Shown here: one piece after another, positions 950 to 62,490 of the stretch
Position numbering within the stretch: the stretch's first letter is position 1
Layout: each line of letters starts with the position of its first letter
Assembly: GCF_021130785.1 (NCBI RefSeq)
Contig: NC_060212.1
Span: 149,155,001-149,219,000, forward strand
DNA: 64,000 bases
Source: Homalodisca vitripennis
Lineage: Eukaryota; Arthropoda; Insecta; Hemiptera; Cicadellidae
Direction of reading: 5' to 3'
The notes under the pieces: model-generated
Database searches by the model: none
What the model was told of the DNA's origin: nothing
Seen by the model: only the letters and a program-made list of their open reading frames with translations
Program-made: the position numbers and the translations under genes

Positions 950-1466
950 TACTCAGATTTCACGATTTCACCAGCGCAGAGAAGTATGATGCTGTTATCG
1001 AGGAAGATTACTAATATTTCAAAGGCCGATGAACTGTGATCCGTATCACTTTACCGGTCTATACGTTCCCAGGTCTTTGAAGGTTTTTATAACCTCTATT
1101 CTTTATTTAGATTTTGAGCACAAAGTAGTAACACCACTCGATGAAACTGAATCAAACGGAAGAACTGAAATAGCATTCCAAGAAGATGGCGCACCTCCAC
1201 ATTTCTTGGAGGTAGTTCGGTTGTGGTTAATCAAGAACCATTCAATTATACGTGAAAGAGTTGTAGCGTGTCCCCTCGATCCCCAGACGTAAACACTTTT
1301 AACTATTGTATGTAGATGAAGAGTTTAGTGTATGACTCTGTTGTAAATAGTTGAGAATAATCAAGGGAAAAGACTATAATTATAGTGGATTTGTGAGAGA
1401 AAAACTGTGCAACAAAGATACTGTAGGCGGTATGCGCAAACCGGAAAGGACCTCATTAAACTTTGA
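950..1466 (+). pseudogene. Decayed Tc1/mariner-like DDE transposase, C-terminal half
   Basis: This is the remnant of an IS630/Tc1/mariner-type transposase, a nuclear cut-and-paste enzyme. Three blocks appear in order. At 967-1011 the frame reads FTSAEKYDAVIEEDY, like the 'xxAExYxxxLEE' block before the second catalytic Asp. At about 1170-1215 comes FQEDGAPPHF, the family hallmark around that Asp (usually FQQDGAPPHF). At about 1273-1302, one frame over, PRSPDVNTFN matches the PRSPDLTPLDF block that supplies the third acidic residue. Further weak similarity runs to a stop at 1464-1466. The blocks lie in different frames, stops interrupt them, and about 150 bp without similarity separates the first two. 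It is therefore dead. An 87-residue open frame at 1029-1292 covers only the middle block and is not a gene. Confidence 0.75.
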
Positions 1467-2472: not shown

Positions 2473-3206
2473 ATGAGTGAGGCAGAGAAAGTGGGTTGAA
2501 GACGAATGATGCAAAAACTAAATATATGCACTTTAGAAGGAATCAAAATCAAATAGGAGGACCCCTACAAATTGATGGGCATGTTTTTGAACAAGTGGAG
2601 AACTTTAAGTACCTTGGGGTCACAATATCAAATAAAAACACAGATGAACCAGAGATACAAAATAGGATCAACTCAGCAAATAGATGTGTATATGCATGCA
2701 ATAGGATACTTTCAACCAAATCTCTCTCTCACAAAACTAAAACTACAATATACAAAACAATTATATTTCCAGTGCTTTTGTACGGATCCGAAACGTGGAG
2801 GCTAAATAAGAAGGATGAGAAAAAGCTTCTAGTTTTCGAGAATAGAATTCTACGTAAAATTTATGGGCCATCATATGAACAAGAGGTATGGAGAAGAAAA
2901 CATAATAGAGAAATCAGGGAGCTCCACAATAGTACGGATGTAATAGGAGAAATAAAGTGCAGAAGACTCCGTTGGGCAGGCCATGTTTTGAGAAGAGAAG
3001 AGGAATGCAAACTGAAGAGGGTAATGTACGGTAACCCAGAAGGAAGACGGCCCCGGGGGAGACCAAAAGTGAGATGGTGGAACCAGGTGAAGGCTGATAT
3101 GGAGAAGATGGGCGCTTCAGAGGAAGATGCAGAGGACCGTTCAAGATGGAGGAGCTTTGTAGGTGCGGCTAAATATCACCTCCGATATAAATGGCCCTGG
3201 GAGTAA
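2473..3206 (+). pseudogene. 5'-truncated non-LTR retrotransposon, reverse transcriptase C-terminus
   Basis: The 3' end of a LINE reverse-transcriptase ORF, the protein that copies element RNA at a nicked target. The intact frame from 2496 reads LKTNDAKTKYMHF, then VENFKYLGVTIS, then LLYGSETWRL, RRLRWAGHVLRR and a basic GRPKVRWWNQVKADM tail. This is the standard order at the C-terminal end of insect endonuclease-reverse-transcriptase proteins. The upstream frame 2473-2495 (MSEAEKVG) continues the homology but sits one base out of phase, so a frameshift near 2494 is visible. The fingers and palm carrying the catalytic YXDD and the endonuclease domain are missing. A stop at 3204-3206 is followed at once by an (AAGT)n tail, as expected for a copy truncated during target-primed reverse transcription. 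Open frames on the opposite strand here are shadows. Confidence 0.92.
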
Positions 3207-6174: not shown

Positions 6175-6505
6175 CTTTTTCCCAGGACGGTTCACTTCTG
6201 GGTGGTTTATACCATCCAGTTGAACCCACACTGGGTACAGCAGAAACCCAGTGAGGATTCACAGTCTAGGAAACCTTATGGATATCCAGGAGAGGAACAT
6301 CACTAACAGTAAATTTCAAGATGATGGGGAGCTAGGGTATATATAGGTCTAGTCTACTGCGGGAGATAACTTACAGTTGGTGGGACTCCCCAAGTGTTAA
6401 GAGCTGTTACTAGCCTAGACATAAGGGCCAAGGGCGTGCCCCTCACCGCGGACTTTGACTGGAGAGGCTGGTTCAGACCTGGCTTCCCCCTTTTCTCCTA
6501 AGAAG
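6175..6505 (-). repeat. Dispersed repeat X, copy 1
   Basis: A GC-richer block whose reverse complement aligns along its length with 23035-23430. Shared blocks include 'ggtttatacc', 'ccagttgaac', 'gtctagtctactg', 'gttggtggg' and 'ctggttcagac', in the same order in both copies once one is reversed. The two copies have diverged by substitutions and small gaps. The family is unidentified and no terminal inverted repeats or tail were seen. Confidence 0.7.
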
Positions 6506-7448: not shown

Positions 7449-7951
7449 ACTAGCTGTTTCCCGCGGCTTCGCACGCTTTTCGTAAATTTTGCCTGTATAT
7501 GAGCACTTCTGGTTCAAGTGAATTATATTTCCAATGCCGATGTAGAGTTTGTCTTGTTGCCACGACCAAGGAAATTTGTCAAACGTGTATGTTTACAGCC
7601 ATTGTACACGTACATGTACTTTATTTTAAATTGGTCCAAACCTCAAGCTTTAAGTTCAACAAGAAAGTTATTTTAAAGACAAATATTATACATAATAATT
7701 TAGCGCCTTCAAATAGTGCTTGGCTATTTAATATACGTAACTGCCTTGTAATTGCAGTTTATAATGTGCAGGCGCTTTGAAAACTTTTATCTATTGCAGC
7801 GCCTCCTGGTGGCGAGTTACATCAATGGGCATAGCATATAAACCTTCTACATAGAAAAATACACGTACATAAAAATTTTCATAATGATCGGACAAATAGT
7901 TTACGATTCAATAAAGGACAAACACACAAACATTCATCTTTATATATATAT
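7449..7951 (+). repeat. Head-repeat family, unit 1 of a three-unit array
   Basis: Starts with the dispersed head motif 'actagctgtttcccgcggc' followed by 'ttcgcacgc'. It ends with the tail 'aggacaaacacacaaac', 'attcat' and a short (TA)n run. Its interior matches, in reverse, the copy at 13390-13740. Arthropod genomes carry many such elements. I cannot assign this one to a named superfamily. Confidence 0.75.
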
Positions 7952-8874
7952 ACTAGCGGGCCCGGCGCGCTTTGCTGCGCATTTCAATAATTTTTTTGCA
8001 AAAGTTGCCCGCGGCTTCGCACGCAATTTCCCGTTGAAAACAGTACACTATATTCACTTATTCTTTTTCTATCACATTCTAAACATTGCTGAGATAATTG
8101 ATAGTCGTTCCATCGTGAGCCTCTTGGGCGTATTATGAAGGTATGTACCATATTCCTGCCTCTATCTAGCTGTTACCCACGGCTTCGCACGCAAATCTTA
8201 AGAACCGAAGTCCTTATATTACTTAGTAATTTTTTTTTTACTATAATAAATTTTAGATTAAATTAGTTATATCTCCGATGCCACGATTGAGCTTGCTTTG
8301 TTGTCTCGATCGAGAGAATATGTACACACGGAGTTTTGAGAACCATACTTCTGTCAAAAAAAAACAACTAAGGTTGATTTTATAACATTCTTTATATTTG
8401 TAGCCAACGTAAGATAGTAATTATGATATCTGCATTACTCTTCTGATCAAGCATGAGCATGGTTTATATTAAATAAATATTGCAGTTAAAGGTGAATTTT
8501 TACGTCAAATTTGAATTGTATTATCTGGATAGTAAAGTCTATGTTTAACAGTGATTGCAAAAAAACAGTTTAAACAAAATTTGTCGTTTCTCTTAAGCTT
8601 ACTCTATGCTTTAAAACTATAAGTGTAATATATGTTTACAAAGAACAGCTGATTAAAAATTTGAAAAGACGTTAACATATGTTTGCTGCAATGCATTTCT
8701 TATGGGTATTTCTGTAACCAGTGGGGCGGAATCCTGAATCGGGAAAGGGATGGGCATAGCTTATAAACCTTCTCCGTGGAAAAATACATATACGTACAAA
8801 TTTTCATCATGATCGGTCCAATAGTTCACGATTCCATAAAGGACAAACATACAAACATTCATTTTTATATATAT
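7952..8874 (+). repeat. Head-repeat family, 923-bp tandem copy A
   Basis: The first of two near-identical tandem units. It begins 'actagcgggcccggcgcgc', and carries two more head motifs at about 8004-8024 and 8166-8192. It ends with the tail 'aggacaaacatacaaac' plus 'attcatttttatatatat'. Differences from copy B are a few homopolymer length changes and rare substitutions, for example 'acagctgatt' here against 'acaggtgatt' there. Open frames inside (for example 7884-8138 and 8761-8979) are repeat sequence, not genes. Confidence 0.9.
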
Positions 8875-9795
8875 ACTAGCGGGCCCGGCGCGCTTTGCTG
8901 CGCATTTCAATAATTTTTTGCAAAAGTTGCCCGCGGCTTCGCACGCAATTTCCCGTTGAAAACAGTACACTATATTCACTTATTCTTTTTCTATCACATT
9001 CTAAACATTGCTGAGATAATTGATAGTCGTTCCATCGTGAGCCTCTTGGGCGTATTATGAAGGTATGTACCATATTCCTGCCTCTATCTAGCTGTTACCC
9101 ACGGCTTCGCACGCAAATCTTAAGAACCGAAGTCCTTATATTACTTAGTAAATTTTTTTTTTTTACTATAATAAATTTTAGATTAAATTAGTTATATCTC
9201 CGATGCCACGATTGAGCTTGCTTTGTTGTCTCGATCGAGAGAATATGTACACACGGAGTTTTGAGAACCATACTTCTGTCAAAAAAACAACTAAGGTTGA
9301 TTTTATAACATTCTTTATATTTGTAGCCAACGTAAGATAGTAATTATGATATCTGCATTACTCTTCTGATCAAGCATGAGCATGGTTTATATTAAAAAAA
9401 TATTGCAGTTAAAGGTGAATTTTTACGTCAAATTTGAATTGTATTATCTGGATAGTAAAGTCTATGTTTAACAGTGATTGCAAAAACAGTTTAAACAAAA
9501 TTTGTCGTTTCTCTTAAGCTTACTCTATGCTTTAAAACTATAAGTGTAATATATGTTTACAAAGAACAGGTGATTAAAAATTTGAAAAGACGTTAACATA
9601 TGTTTGCTGCAATGCATTTCTTATGGGTATTTCTGTAACCAGTGGGGCGGAATCCTGAATCGGGAAAGGGATGGGCATAGCTTATAAACCTTCTCCGTGG
9701 AAAAATACATATACGTACAAATTTTCATCATGATCGGTCCAATAGTTCACGATTCCATAAAGGACAAACATACAAACATTCATTTTTATATATAT

Positions 9796-9797
<2 letters not shown>
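8875..9797 (+). repeat. Head-repeat family, 923-bp tandem copy B
   Basis: The second unit, starting exactly 923 bases after copy A and ending in the same tail, which then runs into a long (TA)n tract. The junction between the copies is tail-to-head, so this is a direct tandem duplication of a complete unit. Confidence 0.9.
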
Positions 9798-23034: not shown

Positions 23035-23430
23035 GCGCTGCTTCCGGAGTGACAGGATATTCAGGATAGGTAAGGTTAGGGAGTAGGGGCTGCCTTCTAT
23101 CGAGATCCATGAGGAAGAATTAGGGCACTACATCTCAAAGACATGTCTCCCGGGAAGAAGGTGAGGCCAGCTCTGAACCAGATTAGGGAACAAAAACCCC
23201 ACCAACTCCAACAGTCATCTCCCACAGTAGACTAGACCTATCGAATTGCCCATGAACCCCAGAATCTCAAAATGTGCGGTTAGTGATGTGCCGCTACTGT
23301 ACATTCATAAGTGATGTGCCCAGATTGAAGTGGCACATCGGTTTTTGCTGTGCCCAGTGATAGGTTCAACTGGTAGGTATAAACCAGTCAGAAGTGATCC
23401 CTGCTGGGTAAGCCTAAGAAGGTTACTGCG
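23035..23430 (+). repeat. Dispersed repeat X, copy 2
   Basis: Matches the reverse complement of 6175-6505 block by block. It also has about 60 extra bases at its left end, 'cgctgcttccggagtgacag' onward, that copy 1 lacks. It contains an internal partial duplication around 'gtgatgtgcc' (about 23285 and 23312). Confidence 0.7.
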
Positions 23431-23524
23431 GTCAAAAAACATCTAATCTCGGTATAAGGGTGAAATCCTAACTAAATTCTTGCAAAATTTGAAAATATTG
23501 GTTTATAATAGGTTTTTTAATTAT

Positions 23525-39400: not shown

Positions 39401-42400
39401 TATACATTTTCCGATGATACATGCCTCTCAATTGAATTCAGCTGAGCAATTGAAAAAACTTATAACTAATGGTGCTATATTCGAAATGAATTGAGCCATA
39501 AATCTGTCTTCGCTATCTTTAAGGATGCTGTAAAAAAATCCTTTTTTATGCCTTGGACTTTTAAATTTCTTCTCTGCCCAAGCACCTTCCTATCCGCAGG
39601 ATATTTCTAGAAAGAAATCAGCTAATCAATCTCAACTTGAAATTTTTCAACGAAATTTCAAAGAACCTTCTTACGTGACGTATTAATTAATGATTAATTG
39701 AAATTTCAATGGTGTTTATGGCAAGTGCGTTGCAGATACGGTTTTTAAATAGCAAATTATTCGTGAATATACATTCGCGAACCAAAATTTTTGAAGACTG
39801 CAAAATAGCAAATACTCGGAAACGGTAAACATAACTTCGGCAGTATACATTGATTACTGTAGTAGTGTTTGTGAACACTAACTTACAGGACGAGATGAGC
39901 TGGATAGTATTGAACATAAAAGGCATACCAGTACCGTTAACACAACAAGAAGGAATCATGCCTCTAAATTCTCATCGTTTCTGGCACTATAAGTTCAAAA
40001 TTAAGAGAAATAAGAGTAATGTTATAAATGTGGGTTTTATTTTCAATTTCCTAATCACTGTCAATTCTTGGATAAAATCAGAAATTTAGAGAAGGGGAGC
40101 ATTGAATGTGTGTAATTACAAAGTAAATAACAAATACGCAAAAATATGAAAGAAAATCTCCACGCATGAAAGGCAAAGGGCATCGCTCATCACTGCCGGC
40201 CTACAAAGCAGTTGAAATACTTTGTCCTAATTATTAACGATTAATTAACATTTATTTATTTAGTTTTCAAATAAGATACTTCAGGATTTCAGGTCTCTCT
40301 ATATATAACATTCTTCTGTATATTTTATATCAGGATTCAAATGGTATTTACAATTATTAGATTGATCCCTATTATCGTCACATACTTTCAAAATGTACGA
40401 CTACTATATTTTTTGGAACGGTAATTCCAAACAGGAACTCTCTACTTTCCTTAATTCAATCTGATTGGTCAGAAAACAAGTTCAGAATTAGAAATATAGA
40501 GTTTTGTGGTAGTTTATTAGTGTTATTTTATTCATTGGACTTGGTTATATAAAACCAGATAAATATTCTGGAACTAGAATCCTTGTTACCATGAACAAAC
40601 CTTTTACTTTAATAACCCTACTAAGCATAGATTTTAGAGGTTTTAAAACAATACATCAATAATAATTACATTATCTTGATTCCTCCATTAATTTAAGTAT
40701 TTATTAAGACAGTCCTAACCCCTAATATCCCTAATTTTGCTATCGATAAACTGACAAAATTAAATTGTATAACAAATGTTTTCATATATATTTAGAGAAT
40801 TACAGTATTCAAACTAGGTAAAATGTAATAATGGATTACAGTATTCATAAATAATTATCTAGAGTAATAATCATTTAATAATATTAGAAACTCACGTGAA
40901 TATTTTCAATGTATGGCCTATAGAAAGTTTAAGTCAGTTATTAATCAATGGCCTGGAAACTTTTCCTTACTGTTCGTCTTGGGACCAAAAATTCTATTCA
41001 GTCTGAACACTCAAAAATAAATTAACTATAATTTTTGAATTGTTGATCCAACTCCAGCGAAGACTGTTGACTGACATGTGATCTAGAGAACCTTTTGCAC
41101 TCTGCTACTTATTAAGTAGTCCCCCAGGAAATTCGTAAAAGGCACATATTATACGCAAATTTCCAAATTATAACATACGAGGTGATTGATTTTCTAGATA
41201 TGCAATACTTTTCCACATCCTTTTCGTTCAGATAATAACATACAAATATTAGTAAGTCCAAATATGTACACTCAGAAAACGGCCTCGTAATCATGTAAAG
41301 AAAACATGTTATAAACCTGGAAGCTGGAAATCTTTAAAAGCAAGGTATACCACTAATTGTAAGCTGTTATTAAAAGCTTTAATACATAATAAATAATCCA
41401 AAAAGGGTAATAAAAAGAGTACGTTGTTCCTTAGCTATAACAAAATCTCAAAATATTTCAAGTTAGTCTCACGAAACGGTCATTGAACCGGGTTTAAGTT
41501 GCTTTACACTGCAGCCCTTATTTATTTGGCTTGTAGGATCCTGTCCACGTATTCATGTATCTGACGTAATGGATTTTTATTAGGTTCTTCAGCTTTCGAA
41601 AAAATTATATGAAATGAAATGATGTTAAACATTTCAGTGGAATTCGGATGGTACATTGTGTCTTTTCACAGAGGAAAAACGTGAACCACCGAAGGGTGCG
41701 GATCTTAGCACTTCTGCACGAGCACTCCCAGCCCAAATTTTCGGACTACTGTAATTGTCTATCATCGACTGTGTTCGCAATGTGCATCGATCACTTGTAT
41801 TACTTTACATTAAAAGCTAGTTTCAGCTTCGTCCCTTGCTGTTACAAATTAAAATTGGAAAGAAAATGTATGATGGAGTCCAACTGTTCACAAATATCTT
41901 TAAAATATACAATATTCATTAAAATAAGTCGCCGCCTTCGCAGCATTTTTCATCCCAATACACTTGGCCGTGATTTCATGGGTTTAAATATGGAAATTAC
42001 TGGACACTGTTACATTTATGAAATTAAGCAAACTTTTTAAAATGTCCATCCATATTTAAGCCTCGCTATCCAATATTTACGAAACATTTTGAGTTCTCTT
42101 GGATGATTAAAAAAATGTTTTAACCGTTTTAGTCATACATAAAAAACTTATCCCTATTCGTATTTGTAATGATTTACTAGTTCTGACCGTGATAAGAACT
42201 ATCATTAAAATCATTAAGGTTTTTTTTTCAAAGTCATTTCTTAGTGAGCATCTACGTAAGAGATAAGACAGACATGTGATAAGTCAGTCAGTCGTTTTAG
42301 GTTTAAATATATATTTTATACTAGCAGGTTTAGCATCTGTATAATCACTGCTAGTTCGATGGGATTTATATTTCCAAAACCCATGTTGAGTTCTTTTTCT

Positions 42401-45640: not shown

Positions 45641-48126
45641 ATTTATTACTCAATATAATTTTAAACTTGTACTTATAATCTACATAGAAATTTTTTGACA
45701 GTTAGTTTATAAAAAATTACTATTTAGATTATAATTACAAGTTTAAATTATACTGAGTTCACCAAATTATTGTTTGAATTAATATTTGGATCGCATTAAA
45801 TATCCTACGGCTAGTAATGAAAATACTATGTCAATACCTACTCAATTACGTGTATACAATTTTTAGAAGATTAGGTTAAATTACATGTTTATAATTATGA
45901 GCTAGAACAGTTAAAACAACACATTTACATAATTCGTTGGTTAAATTTCACTTAAATATCTTCAGTTTGATTAAATCACGTTCAAAGTCTAAATGAAATG
46001 ATTCTCTGCAATGACGTCACCAAAATCCTTAAGCTTCTTTCATAATTACGTTTCAAATTCTGCACCAGCTTGATGATACCACTTGTGATGATTAGCTCGC
46101 TTTTATACTTACAAAGTTATTTATTTGTAAAATTACTTGATATAGTGGAATCGAAAAACTAAACTACATGTATGTCGACTTATTAAGCCACATTACTGGT
46201 AGCTTATATGTTGTTGGTTATGCTAATGATATTATCTTTACTTCATATGTTATTCGTCATAAAATACCTATAAAGCCCTTTCTACAAATATTACATGTTT
46301 CAATAAAAACCCATTATTAACAACTTCTAACGTAGCGATCTTTAAATTTAAAATATGCACTATCAAAGATAAAAAGCAAAACAACAAATAAGATGTTTGT
46401 GAAATAGCTGTTTTCACTAACAACTGCACAAGGAAAGTGTAATATATATTAAATAGGTCTTATTAGACCTATATAACGTAAATATTTCTATGCATTGATG
46501 AATGTAAAATTATTATTACGATAAATTAGTTTAATCGATAATCATTTGCATGTAAAGCACAATAATCAAATCGCTTTCCTAAAGAATAATTTCTTTTACA
46601 TCATATAACTTGTTTTGAATGTATGGAAATAGACAGAATAAAAAGTATTGTGCGAGGTAGCACCGTTAAAACTATTCCTTTCATCTTGTTACCTCCTTTT
46701 CCCCTTTTCCTTGTATGATTCTGGTGTTGTAAAAATACACCACTTTTCCGGCTGAGCATAATAGATGTATATACCATTATTCTCTGTTTGTTTTATTGTG
46801 TTAGCTATTGCATACAAACAAGAGGTATTTTTATTCATAAAAGTATAAAATTTGTATTTAAACAGTTTATTAGAAAACTTCAATAATAATATTTTCGGGT
46901 AATATTTAATTCAAACCTTAGTTGTAATAATGTGTGTGAGGCATTAACACTTACCGAGAATTTCCCGTGTGAAATAAATAAGATATAATGATAAATAATA
47001 GAAAAGCTTATATGTTTCTTGCATTTGTATTTTCACTGTATCTTATTAGACATATTTTTACTTCAACAAACAAGTGTTCATATCCAATTTGTACTAATAT
47101 TTTCCATATATTTTTATTTAAAAGGTTCTAGGTAACATTCTGAATTAGATTAAACAATGGATAACAACGTTTTATTTATTAACTAACACCTCAGACTAAT
47201 AAAATAACAAAAACTAAACGTCATCTTTTCACGGTAGCTATTAAATAAATAAATCTATATTTACATGGCAATGCCTACTGAGTATTTTCCACAAATTACA
47301 CAATACTGCATTTGGGTTATAAACCAATCTGTCCATTAAATATTCCGTCTGATGTCAAAAACTCTGTTTGGTTAGTATTTTTTTTTTTTAGTATAAACAT
47401 TTTGAAACAGTGTATGTTTGTTTTATGTGTCTTGTCTAAGAGATAAGCTTGTTATAGGTTGATATATTTATTGTAATACCAATATTATTTCATTCATTAT
47501 AAACAGTTAATTTAATTTATGGGAAACTGCGTAAATAATTATAATTATGAAACGAAAATATTTAGAAAAACTAATTGATTTATAGTGTTCTTGAATAAGT
47601 GAAATGGAATAATAAACAAGGCCTCTTCACAAATTATTTAGATTTGTTTCTGGTTTTCAAAATTTACAAAATCTATTTCAGAGTTATATTTTGAATGTTT
47701 CATCACTGGTTGAAGAACTTTCCACAATATAATATTGAAAACGATGTATATGTAAATTACAATATAAGTTTAGAACCACAAGCTAACAAGATGATTACAA
47801 CAAGTTATTTCAATATTGTATTATACAAATCTCCGTATTATTAAATTTTTATCAACGTAATGCAAGTTAACAATACAAGTATATATGTAAATTTGTAGAC
47901 CAATATTGATAAAAATACAAATCTAATTAAAATTATAGGATCTCCTAAACCTCATCTACACACTACTTCTAAGTACAAGCATATTTTCGTAGTTTTAACT
48001 GTTAGTTTATTTGTCATAATTTCAGTTTGTATAATACTATGATCATGGAATACGGTAAAATAAGTAAAAGTTACTTCATTTATTTCAATGAAAGTGTTAT
48101 ATCACAATATTATAGTAATGTGTTGT

Positions 48127-48184
<58 letters not shown>

Positions 48185-48955
48185 GGATATATGTATTAAA
48201 AGGATACTTTATGGTTTACACAATACTAAAATGGAATATGACTTATAGACTCAAATAAGTAACACATTGATTTTTTATTATATTTCCAAAAAAGTAATTA
48301 TTTTTACCACACTTTGCATATTGTTTACAGCATTAATGATAAAAATATAATTAAATTTTACAACGTTAGTTTCATAATTTATATATTTTTGTACAATAAA
48401 TGGCGTTTAATGTAATCATTCAAAATTTTTTTGGCTTGATACTAATTTTTATGAAAATTATTTCATATGTACTGATGACTTTTGGAAAGTATCAGAAGTA
48501 GAAAGCGGTGAGCCAGAATTTGCCATTGATGTTCCTTATATTAGTTAAAAAGCCACTATTGTATCTATAACTATTTCTATAACGAGCAAAATGTTTTATT
48601 TAGAGAATTTTATCTCTTACGTTCAGTTATATACGTATTGTTAATAACATTTATTCAAATAAGAGTATGTAACACATATTTTAATAGAGAGATTCGTAGT
48701 TTTTTCCAAACTTAAAAATATTGTGTTCGATCATATATCAACCATTGGATACTAGAAAAAACTAAATCCAGGCATACATTTCTAAAAATAAAATTCCATA
48801 CATTATTGAAATACAATTTATAAAAAGCGCTATAGCTATGTGAATGTGTGATTTTTAACAGTTCTTTATTTTCGTCTCAGATTTTTTTCTAGTAAAAATA
48901 ACCAATCTAATTTACATATCAACATATCTACTTTAATAGATCGCTTCTTTAAGAT
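45641..48955. other. AT-rich spacer, no gene seen
   Basis: Nothing recognised apart from a (TA)n tract at 48130-48179. Short frames such as 46689-46883 have no motif. Confidence 0.4.
48130..48179. repeat. (TA)n microsatellite
   Basis: Fifty bases of pure TA. Confidence 0.95.
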
Positions 48956-49069
48956 AAAGTTAGGACAAAAGTCCGCAATCAGAGGCAATCGGTCGATACT
49001 CGTGGCGGGGCGAGGCGGTGCCTTGTCGGTGGGGGAGGGCTGCTCCTGGCGTGTGGAGGTTCAGAAGCA

Positions 49070-49165
49070 TGCCATGCCAACTACAGCTGGTTGAAGGGGA
49101 CCAAATGTTATCAAACCTGGGTACAATTTGGCCCGGATTCAACCAGCTAAAGACTAGCACTGCGG
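49070..49165 (-). ncRNA. mir-133: mir-133 precursor
   Basis: miR-133 is a muscle-associated microRNA conserved across bilaterians; it acts in Argonaute complexes to repress target mRNAs. On the minus strand the 3' arm (49105 down to 49083) carries the mature miR-133 sequence, TUUGGUCCCC-type start through ACCAGCUGU. The 5' arm (49148 to 49125) reads AGCTGGTTGAATCCGGGCC and pairs with it, leaving a terminal loop of about 18 bases (49107-49124). The stem has 11 perfect pairs at its base (AGCTGGTTGAA with TTCAACCAGCT) and a small bulge near GGG/CCC, like known pre-mir-133 hairpins. Flanking TAGTTGGC after the 3' arm also resembles insect orthologues. The open frames on both strands here (48960-49320) are chance in a GC-rich island. 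miR-1, its usual genomic partner, was looked for and not found in the window. Confidence 0.95.
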
Positions 49166-49239
49166 GTGGATTCGATGTCTTTGCGGGTGGACCGTGTATC
49201 GACTCGTTCTCAGTTCTTCGAAACACACGGATACTGTCA

Positions 49240-49460
49240 CACATATCACTTTACACTCGCGCACTCTTGTCGTATAAAACATTCCCTCCGAGAATAGCTC
49301 ATGCTATTTTTAGCACGTAGGATCGTTTAGCGGCCAGCTATTTCCGATTCACTATTGTTTTCACTAGTTGATGACGCTGAATTTCACAGCCACTCACTCT
49401 GTCGTTGGTGTTTCCACGCTGAATCTCTAATTCTTTCTGTATAACAAACAAGTTTGAAAA
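49240..49460 (-). promoter_or_regulatory. GC-richer region upstream of mir-133 with a MEF2-type site
   Basis: On the minus strand CTAAAAATAG (49304-49313) is a perfect match to the MEF2 consensus, about 150 bases upstream of the hairpin. CATTCC at 49280-49285 (plus) is a TEAD/MCAT-type word. MEF2 control of muscle microRNAs is established in flies and vertebrates; its action here is inference. The stretch to 49460 stays GC-richer than background and repeats 'acgctgaat' twice. Confidence 0.45.
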
Positions 49461-50831
49461 TCTTAGAATGCGATACATTTTTTACGATTAAATAAACTTA
49501 ATTTGCTAATATTTCAAGTAAAACCTAATTATTGTTATAGTTTCACAATACATGAGACATTTTTGGGATTTTATTATTTAATTCTTATTTATTTACATAC
49601 AAAACAGTATATTATTTTCTGCTATAGTGAAATAATTATTAATTATATCTTAAATTCAGAGCCAATAGATCTTATTTTCGCAAAATATTAAAATGTTTAA
49701 GAAATGTAAAACATAATATAACCTAAATGGAATTTTTTTTTTTTGTTTTATTTCTATTGGATAAATTACTGAATGTTAGATAATATATCTTTATTAAATG
49801 CATATAAGGTTACTAATGTAGTTCTATGATATTCATAGTAGTATAATTAGTTATATTTATTAGTTTCATATAAGGATATTAATGTTATTTTATTACATTC
49901 ATATAAGGATAACAAACCATTTTCAATGCATTTATATAGGAATAATAATAATGTATTTTCAAACATATTAAAATGTGATCTGTTATAGGCTCTTACTTAT
50001 TGTCTACAATACTTTAATTACTCTACTTTCGAAACCCCACTAATATTTAGTTTTCTATAGTATTAAGTATAATATGAGTGTTTTTCTTATTGATTCAATA
50101 TTCCGACCCTGAAAATGATACTTTTAAATAAATTTCATTACATTTTACAACTGCATTCTGTCTCCGAGGGACGCAGTAAAACACGCTATAAGCTTCGACT
50201 TTAGTGTTCTCTTAACGTTTCACTTAAGTAATTAATCGTCAACTATTGCGGTCTTATGAACTTACTCAATTAAATCATATGAAATACATTATTGGAACTG
50301 ACGTCACTTCATGCAAACCCTCATTGGTTTATTTCAATGGTTAGTTGTACATATATTATAGTTCCTTTAAAACCCACTTACAAGTTGGTTTAATGTGATT
50401 ACCTCATCATGGTGTTTAGAAATCGATTGAATATATGAGTAAAAGACAGTAGCCTATATTTTTAGGAATTCAGTGCTTACAGGACGTTGCTTCTGGTCCT
50501 TTGGATTATTGATTCAAGGTTATTTTAAGCACTTTTACCACGTATCACTTTAAAATATACACTTAAGTACGTACAATTTATATTAAAATATTAGTAAGAA
50601 GTAGAAAATAATTATTTTAATATTATGGTAATACATATGTATTAGTTTAATGAAAAATATTATGCTATTAATGTAAGAATTGCGCAGATTTGTAAAGAAC
50701 AATGTTTGGATGGTTCTATGTTTTTGATACTCAAGTATACAAAATCTAGTGGACAGATTTAGAGAGTTATTGAATTGATATTGCTTGCATAATATGACGT
50801 ATACTTGTATTGCGAAATACTACCCATTATG

Positions 50832-50874
<43 letters not shown>

Positions 50875-50881
50875 TATATGC

Positions 50882-50918
<37 letters not shown>

Positions 50919-61589: not shown

Positions 61590-61860
61590 CTCATAATGTT
61601 TATTCCTCCCTCCTGCAAGATCCTGAGTGTGAAGGTCGGCCTTGAGCGCTGAGTGTGACAGACAAGATTGCATTGGTAGGTACCTAACTGGGCTCAGCTG
61701 ATCCGCCGCAAGTCAGCGTGCCGTGTTATTCTCGGCCAGTCTATTTGGGTACAGTGCGCGCAGCGCCCCGCACTATACCGTAATAGACCGGTCGACTCGG
61801 CTTTATTTATACCACGTCTCATGTGATGCCCCTTCTCGTGTTCCGCCTTTCACCCTTTCT
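61590..61860. promoter_or_regulatory. GC-rich, CpG-containing promoter-like patch
   Basis: Contains 'acagtgcgcgcagcgccccg', several CpGs and, at about 61802, a TATA-like 'tttatttatacc'. No coding exon could be joined to it. It could be a promoter, an enhancer or a repeat fragment. Confidence 0.25.
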
Positions 61861-61962
61861 CGTTAAACTTTTACCACATTCTTGGAAACCCATTTAACTG
61901 TTGCTTCTGAATAGTTGACGATTAGGTACACCCACTTAAAGTCTTGGTTGATTAACAATGTT

Positions 61963-62490
61963 TAAATCAAATCAAATCAAATCAATTTTTTATTGCCAGG
62001 ACATAATCACATGTATAGCAATAGTCAAGATATTCTAAAATTAATATCTAAAATTTAAAACTTTCACATCGCCTCAAACCACATTCAAACGTACAAATTT
62101 TCAGCCAACTCCACATTCATCCAGCCAATATTCCCATTTCCAGCGCCGGTAGTCAGTTTGCTAATTGTGCGGTCACCCAGTCGAATGCCATAAACTCGTC
62201 AGCACTGTAAAATGCTTGCGACACTAAAAAGCGTCTTAAACGAGTTTTTAACACCTTAGGCGTTGGGGCATTTCTTAACTGATCTGGCAACTTGTTGATG
62301 AACCGAATACCTGCCTGGGAGGGCAAGTGTTCGTAAACCCCCGTCCTGTGTCTTCCAGTTCAGTAGGCATCTCTGCCTCTTGTCTCATACTCGTGTATGT
62401 CACGGCCCCGGGTTAATGCACATTTGGACAAACAAAATGAGCTTGTCTCAAGAATGTAGAGACAAGGCAGAGTCAACAGTGCCTGACTGA
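61963..62490 (-). pseudogene. 5'-truncated LINE (Jockey/I-like), reverse transcriptase C-terminus and 3' UTR
   Basis: Minus-strand reading from about 62485 gives LLTLPCLYILETSSFC, then KCALTRGRDIHEYETRGRDA, a TGA stop at 62360-62362, TGRHRTGVYEHLPSQAGIRF, INKLPDQLRN and finally RLRRFLVSQAFYSADEF before a stop at 62153-62155. This is the characteristic C-terminus of a common insect non-LTR retrotransposon (LTLPCLYI...R..TGRHRT..YE.LPSQAG..F.N.LP). The catalytic domain is missing and one stop interrupts the frame. The 3' UTR ends with AATAAA and a (TTTGA)n tail at 61963-61984, so the copy is complete at its 3' end. Confidence 0.88.

Follow-up and report, generated by a model that had tools for sequence, protein, structure and literature searches.

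An intact-looking mir-133 gene in a GC-rich island of the Homalodisca vitripennis genome

Introduction

Does the hairpin encoded on the minus strand of a GC-rich island of Homalodisca vitripennis correspond to a working microRNA gene, and has it kept the genomic company of its relatives in other animals? An earlier sequence-only reading of a 64-kb stretch of this genome (contig NC_060212.1, positions 149,155,001 to 149,219,000; hereafter the window) proposed a mir-133 gene at 49070-49165, in otherwise repeat-rich DNA and with its ancestral partner miR-1 outside the window. Our analysis indicates that this is almost certainly a functional bilaterian mir-133 gene, which lies on the minus strand and would give rise to a noncoding primary transcript. 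The identification is based on a full-model Rfam match, an exact 22-nt mature sequence and a stable fold, and what they describe is one ordinary, intact-looking mir-133 gene, in which no sign of decay is seen.

Identity of the precursor and its mature arm

The Rfam covariance model RF00446 (mir-133) is matched on the minus strand over its whole length (model positions 1-74 of 74, from 49155 to 49078), with 60.4 bits and an E-value of 2e-11. This score exceeds the gathering score of the family (55.5 bits), which makes the precursor a member of it, and no other Rfam match in the 64-kb window reaches its gathering score. The margin is nevertheless modest, and divergence from the Rfam consensus, probably of an ordinary kind, is seen in the loop and in portions of the upper stem.

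The 3p arm is identical at 22 of 22 bases to the miR-133-3p mature sequence and carries the miR-133 seed, which assigns it to the family and upholds the original claim. When up to 3 mismatches are allowed, this 22-mer has a single site in the window, with a chance expectation of 0.00. To judge from titles among the matches listed, the same 22 letters also appear in literature on beetles, thrips, whitefly, mosquitoes, silkworm and dust mite, a search confined to texts that also contain a word starting with “insect”, so that other phyla are not thereby excluded. The exact letters of the 5p arm were not found in the literature, and the mature 22-mer gave 0 matches in viral contigs and 0 in prokaryote genome contigs, as expected for such collections.

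Hairpin fold, strand and processing signals

The sequence-only reading had described a complete hairpin with a well-paired opposite arm, to be confirmed by folding. Once folded, the 116 nt of 49060-49175 (minus strand) form 36 predicted base pairs with a free energy of -43.1 kcal/mol; shuffled sequences average -28.9 (z -4.33), and 0 of 200 are as stable. Pairing involves 19 of the 22 bases of the 3p arm and 20 of the 23 bases of the 5p arm as drawn, and the interval originally proposed agrees with the extended stem to within two bases (Table 1). The plus strand forms a poorer hairpin (z -2.89, likewise with 0 of 200 shuffles as stable), which scores 43.8 bits with RF00446, under gathering, and the minus strand is for this reason taken as the gene strand.

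Table 1. Features of the mir-133 locus, in coordinates of the window
Feature	Position	Strand	Basis
Extended pri-miR-133 stem-loop, 36 predicted pairs	49071..49163	-	Fold, counted from dot-bracket
mir-133 precursor	49078..49155	-	RF00446
Mature miR-133-3p, ends per the 22-mer sought	49083..49104	-	22/22 exact
miR-133-5p (star) arm, both ends chosen by us	49126..49148	-	20/23 paired
21 nt between arms, starting UGU (depends on chosen 5p end)	49105..49125	-	Motif count
CNNC motif (CUUC), beginning 16 nt past the 3p end	49064..49067	-	Sole CNNC in 23 nt inspected
GC-rich segment, perhaps exonic stretch of the primary transcript	48971..49421		Top GC segment of window
Possible 3′ splice acceptor AG, near upstream edge of island	49437..49438	-	By eye, weak
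Possible poly(A) signal AATAAA	48865..48870	-	Weak

Several motifs around the stem may have a bearing on its processing. The start of the 5p arm was picked to give the 3p arm a 2-nt 3′ overhang, and therefore this overhang is no independent test and demonstrates no more than that a duplex of this kind can be constructed. The segment between the arms opens with UGU, a processing motif, and the basal side contains a CNNC, a motif with a role in Drosha processing, which is weak evidence, being four letters of which two are free. A basal UG motif is expected at about -14 from the 5p arm, and the sole UG on the 5′ side of the 5p start as chosen lies at -11, a misfit to this consensus. Counting against the identification are the position of this UG, the score modestly over gathering and the loop and upper stem that depart from consensus.

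The miR-1 partner and mind bomb

In agreement with the sequence-only reading, miR-1 was not found in the window: its mature sequence has 0 matches at up to 3 mismatches, and mir-1 is absent from the 16 Rfam rows obtained across the window at E up to 2. Eleven of these rows (mir-297, mir-3149, mir-1277 and mir-466) were dropped, as they sit on simple repeats, and so were a SNORD116 row at 41542-41631 (28 bits, where gathering stands at 35) and two mir-3938 rows at 45659-45748, all three under gathering. The other two rows are mir-133 itself, on the minus strand and, under gathering, on the plus strand.

Exons of mind bomb were sought in the window by tblastn with human MIB1, which returned 4 rows, the best with an E-value of 7.2. 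Solved MIB1 chains confirm this query in part (residues 7-402, 409-794 and 935-1006). In a control with planted pieces, read at E up to 1, 40 of 40 were recovered in five of the six settings and 34 of 40 in the hardest one (30 residues, about 55% identity). Taken together with this control, the null result makes it unlikely that the window contains a normally conserved mind bomb exon.

How far apart the two microRNAs may lie is illustrated by other animals. In Bombyx, less than 20 kb separates miR-1 from miR-133, and the pair is flanked by mind bomb 1 and a second gene; for other species, the same authors describe the pair as antisense within one MIB1 intron (PMC2500172). Gaps of 11705 to 34008 bp are reported for five flatworm species, where a Mind bomb gene lies close to miR-133 (PMC4405270), and in Drosophila melanogaster the two are reported as linked and >10 kb apart (PMC3763532). 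Judged by these cases, a wide gap between miR-1 and miR-133 is ordinary.

The sequence-only reading had left a choice between a wide spacing of the pair and a broken cluster. No miR-1 was found in the 49 kb on the downstream side of the gene or in the 15 kb on its upstream side; this, and a window without a mind bomb exon in a search that finds 34/40 to 40/40 planted pieces, could be read as a rupture of the miR-1/miR-133 cluster. We consider this rupture unlikely. The absence of miR-1 is weak evidence for it, because linked pairs are known at >10 kb (PMC3763532) and at up to 34 kb (PMC4405270), and lost linkage is not demonstrated, since the window extends only 15 kb upstream of the gene. Somewhat less probable again is that mir-133 has departed from both miR-1 and mind bomb and now stands alone, as an independent gene where genes are sparse, in which case the two muscle microRNAs would no longer be co-regulated.

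The GC-rich island and its surroundings

The claim that the hairpin sits in a GC-rich island holds up well. Among the GC segments of the window, the island (48971-49421) ranks first with a score of 39.6, followed by 61605-62489 with 33.4; the largest value in 200 independent-base simulations was 12.7. A two-boundary fit delimits the GC-rich stretch at 48962-49421, with 50.9% GC against 24.1% across the remainder of 47500-50500. This segment is perhaps exonic in the primary transcript: close to its upstream edge, at 49437, is the end of an acceptor-like TTTGTTATACAG, and an AATAAA lies on the other side, although this hexamer has 148 occurrences on the minus strand of the AT-rich window and is likely there by chance. 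A single terminal exon is only a suggestion, because AATAAA is common in AT-rich DNA.

The description of the surroundings as repeat-rich is true in part. Comparison of the window with itself yields 43 rows, reciprocal ones included, and 0 of them touch 48840-49440, a region for which no copy was found elsewhere in the window; a phage blastn search with 48840-49440 gave no match either. A decayed duplicate or a processed copy of mir-133 is highly improbable: the mature arm is exact, the opposite arm is well paired, the family match is full length and the flanks are without copies in the window.

The window contains other sequences of compositional or repetitive character. TA dinucleotide arrays flank the island on both sides (48130-48179 and 50835-50915), and an imperfect 33-bp tandem array of 3.7 copies with 69% matches occupies 49790-49912, some 350 bp beyond the upstream edge of the island. 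Further GC-rich segments are found at 61605-62489, 23035-23433 and 6181-6490, and, as 6178-6384 matches 23411-23198 in inverted orientation at 74%, the latter two therefore share a repeat. A tandem direct duplication of about 1.05 kb (7825-8875 and 8750-9796) has an offset of 925 and 97.4% identity over 1054 aligned bases.

Coding potential

A Pfam scan of the six frames of 34001-63999 found 0 families at E up to 1 in all 12 frame pieces, in a reading that took stops as X and ran without a planted control, so that short exons could escape it; from 1 to 34 kb, the Pfam scan covered four open frames only. The open frame of 241 codons at 2481-3206 (plus strand) resembles the final portion of a LINE-type reverse transcriptase (RVT_1, 15.2 bits, under the Pfam cut-off of 29.6; E 0.018) and is probably a retrotransposon fragment. 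Two more open frames, at 990-1289 (plus) and 62156-62359 (minus), resemble by eye a mariner-type transposase piece and a LINE piece, and Pfam returned nothing for either.

That the island encodes a small protein, with the hairpin as part of its message, is the least credible reading of all. Open frames of 96 codons (minus) and 118 codons (plus) do cross it, but dinucleotide shuffles equal them in 36 of 500 cases for the minus strand alone and in 59 of 500 for both strands, and neither frame matches a Pfam family at E up to 1.

These observations leave a functional, noncoding mir-133 gene as the preferred reading, with further support from the CNNC at +16 (weak), the better hairpin on the minus strand than on the plus strand, the Pfam null over 34-64 kb and an island without copies in the window.

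Function

Members of the miR-133 family repress messages via their seed. For the gene in H. vitripennis, a noncoding primary transcript would be made from the minus strand, Drosha and Dicer would process its hairpin into miR-133-3p, and the latter, once loaded into Argonaute, would repress messages with seed matches. Among the literature matches listed, no title refers to an insect pri-miR-133 transcript.

The sequence-only reading had also called the locus muscle-related, which stands by family only: miR-133 is described in PMC2500172 as a muscle and heart microRNA, whereas in the locust, according to PMC3937255, it lowers henna and pale, and hence dopamine, with a role in brain dopamine synthesis. 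Either role may apply here.

miR-133 is a microRNA found in many animals, and nothing unusual was seen at the copy in the window. The locus marks the window as animal DNA and offers a fixed orthologous landmark for synteny; otherwise, a well-studied microRNA simply gains a further ortholog.

Comparison with known systems

With the linked miR-1/miR-133 pair located in or next to mind bomb, as described for Bombyx, vertebrates and flatworms (PMC2500172, PMC4405270), the locus has in common the presence of miR-133, and it differs in that searches of the 64-kb window found no miR-1 and no mind bomb exon. Locusta miR-133 belongs to the same family, and differs in that henna and pale are its tested targets there, in dopamine synthesis (PMC3937255). 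Compared with the RF00446 family, the hairpin is unlike in its loop and in parts of its upper stem, and alike in its full-length match and its exact 22-nt mature sequence.
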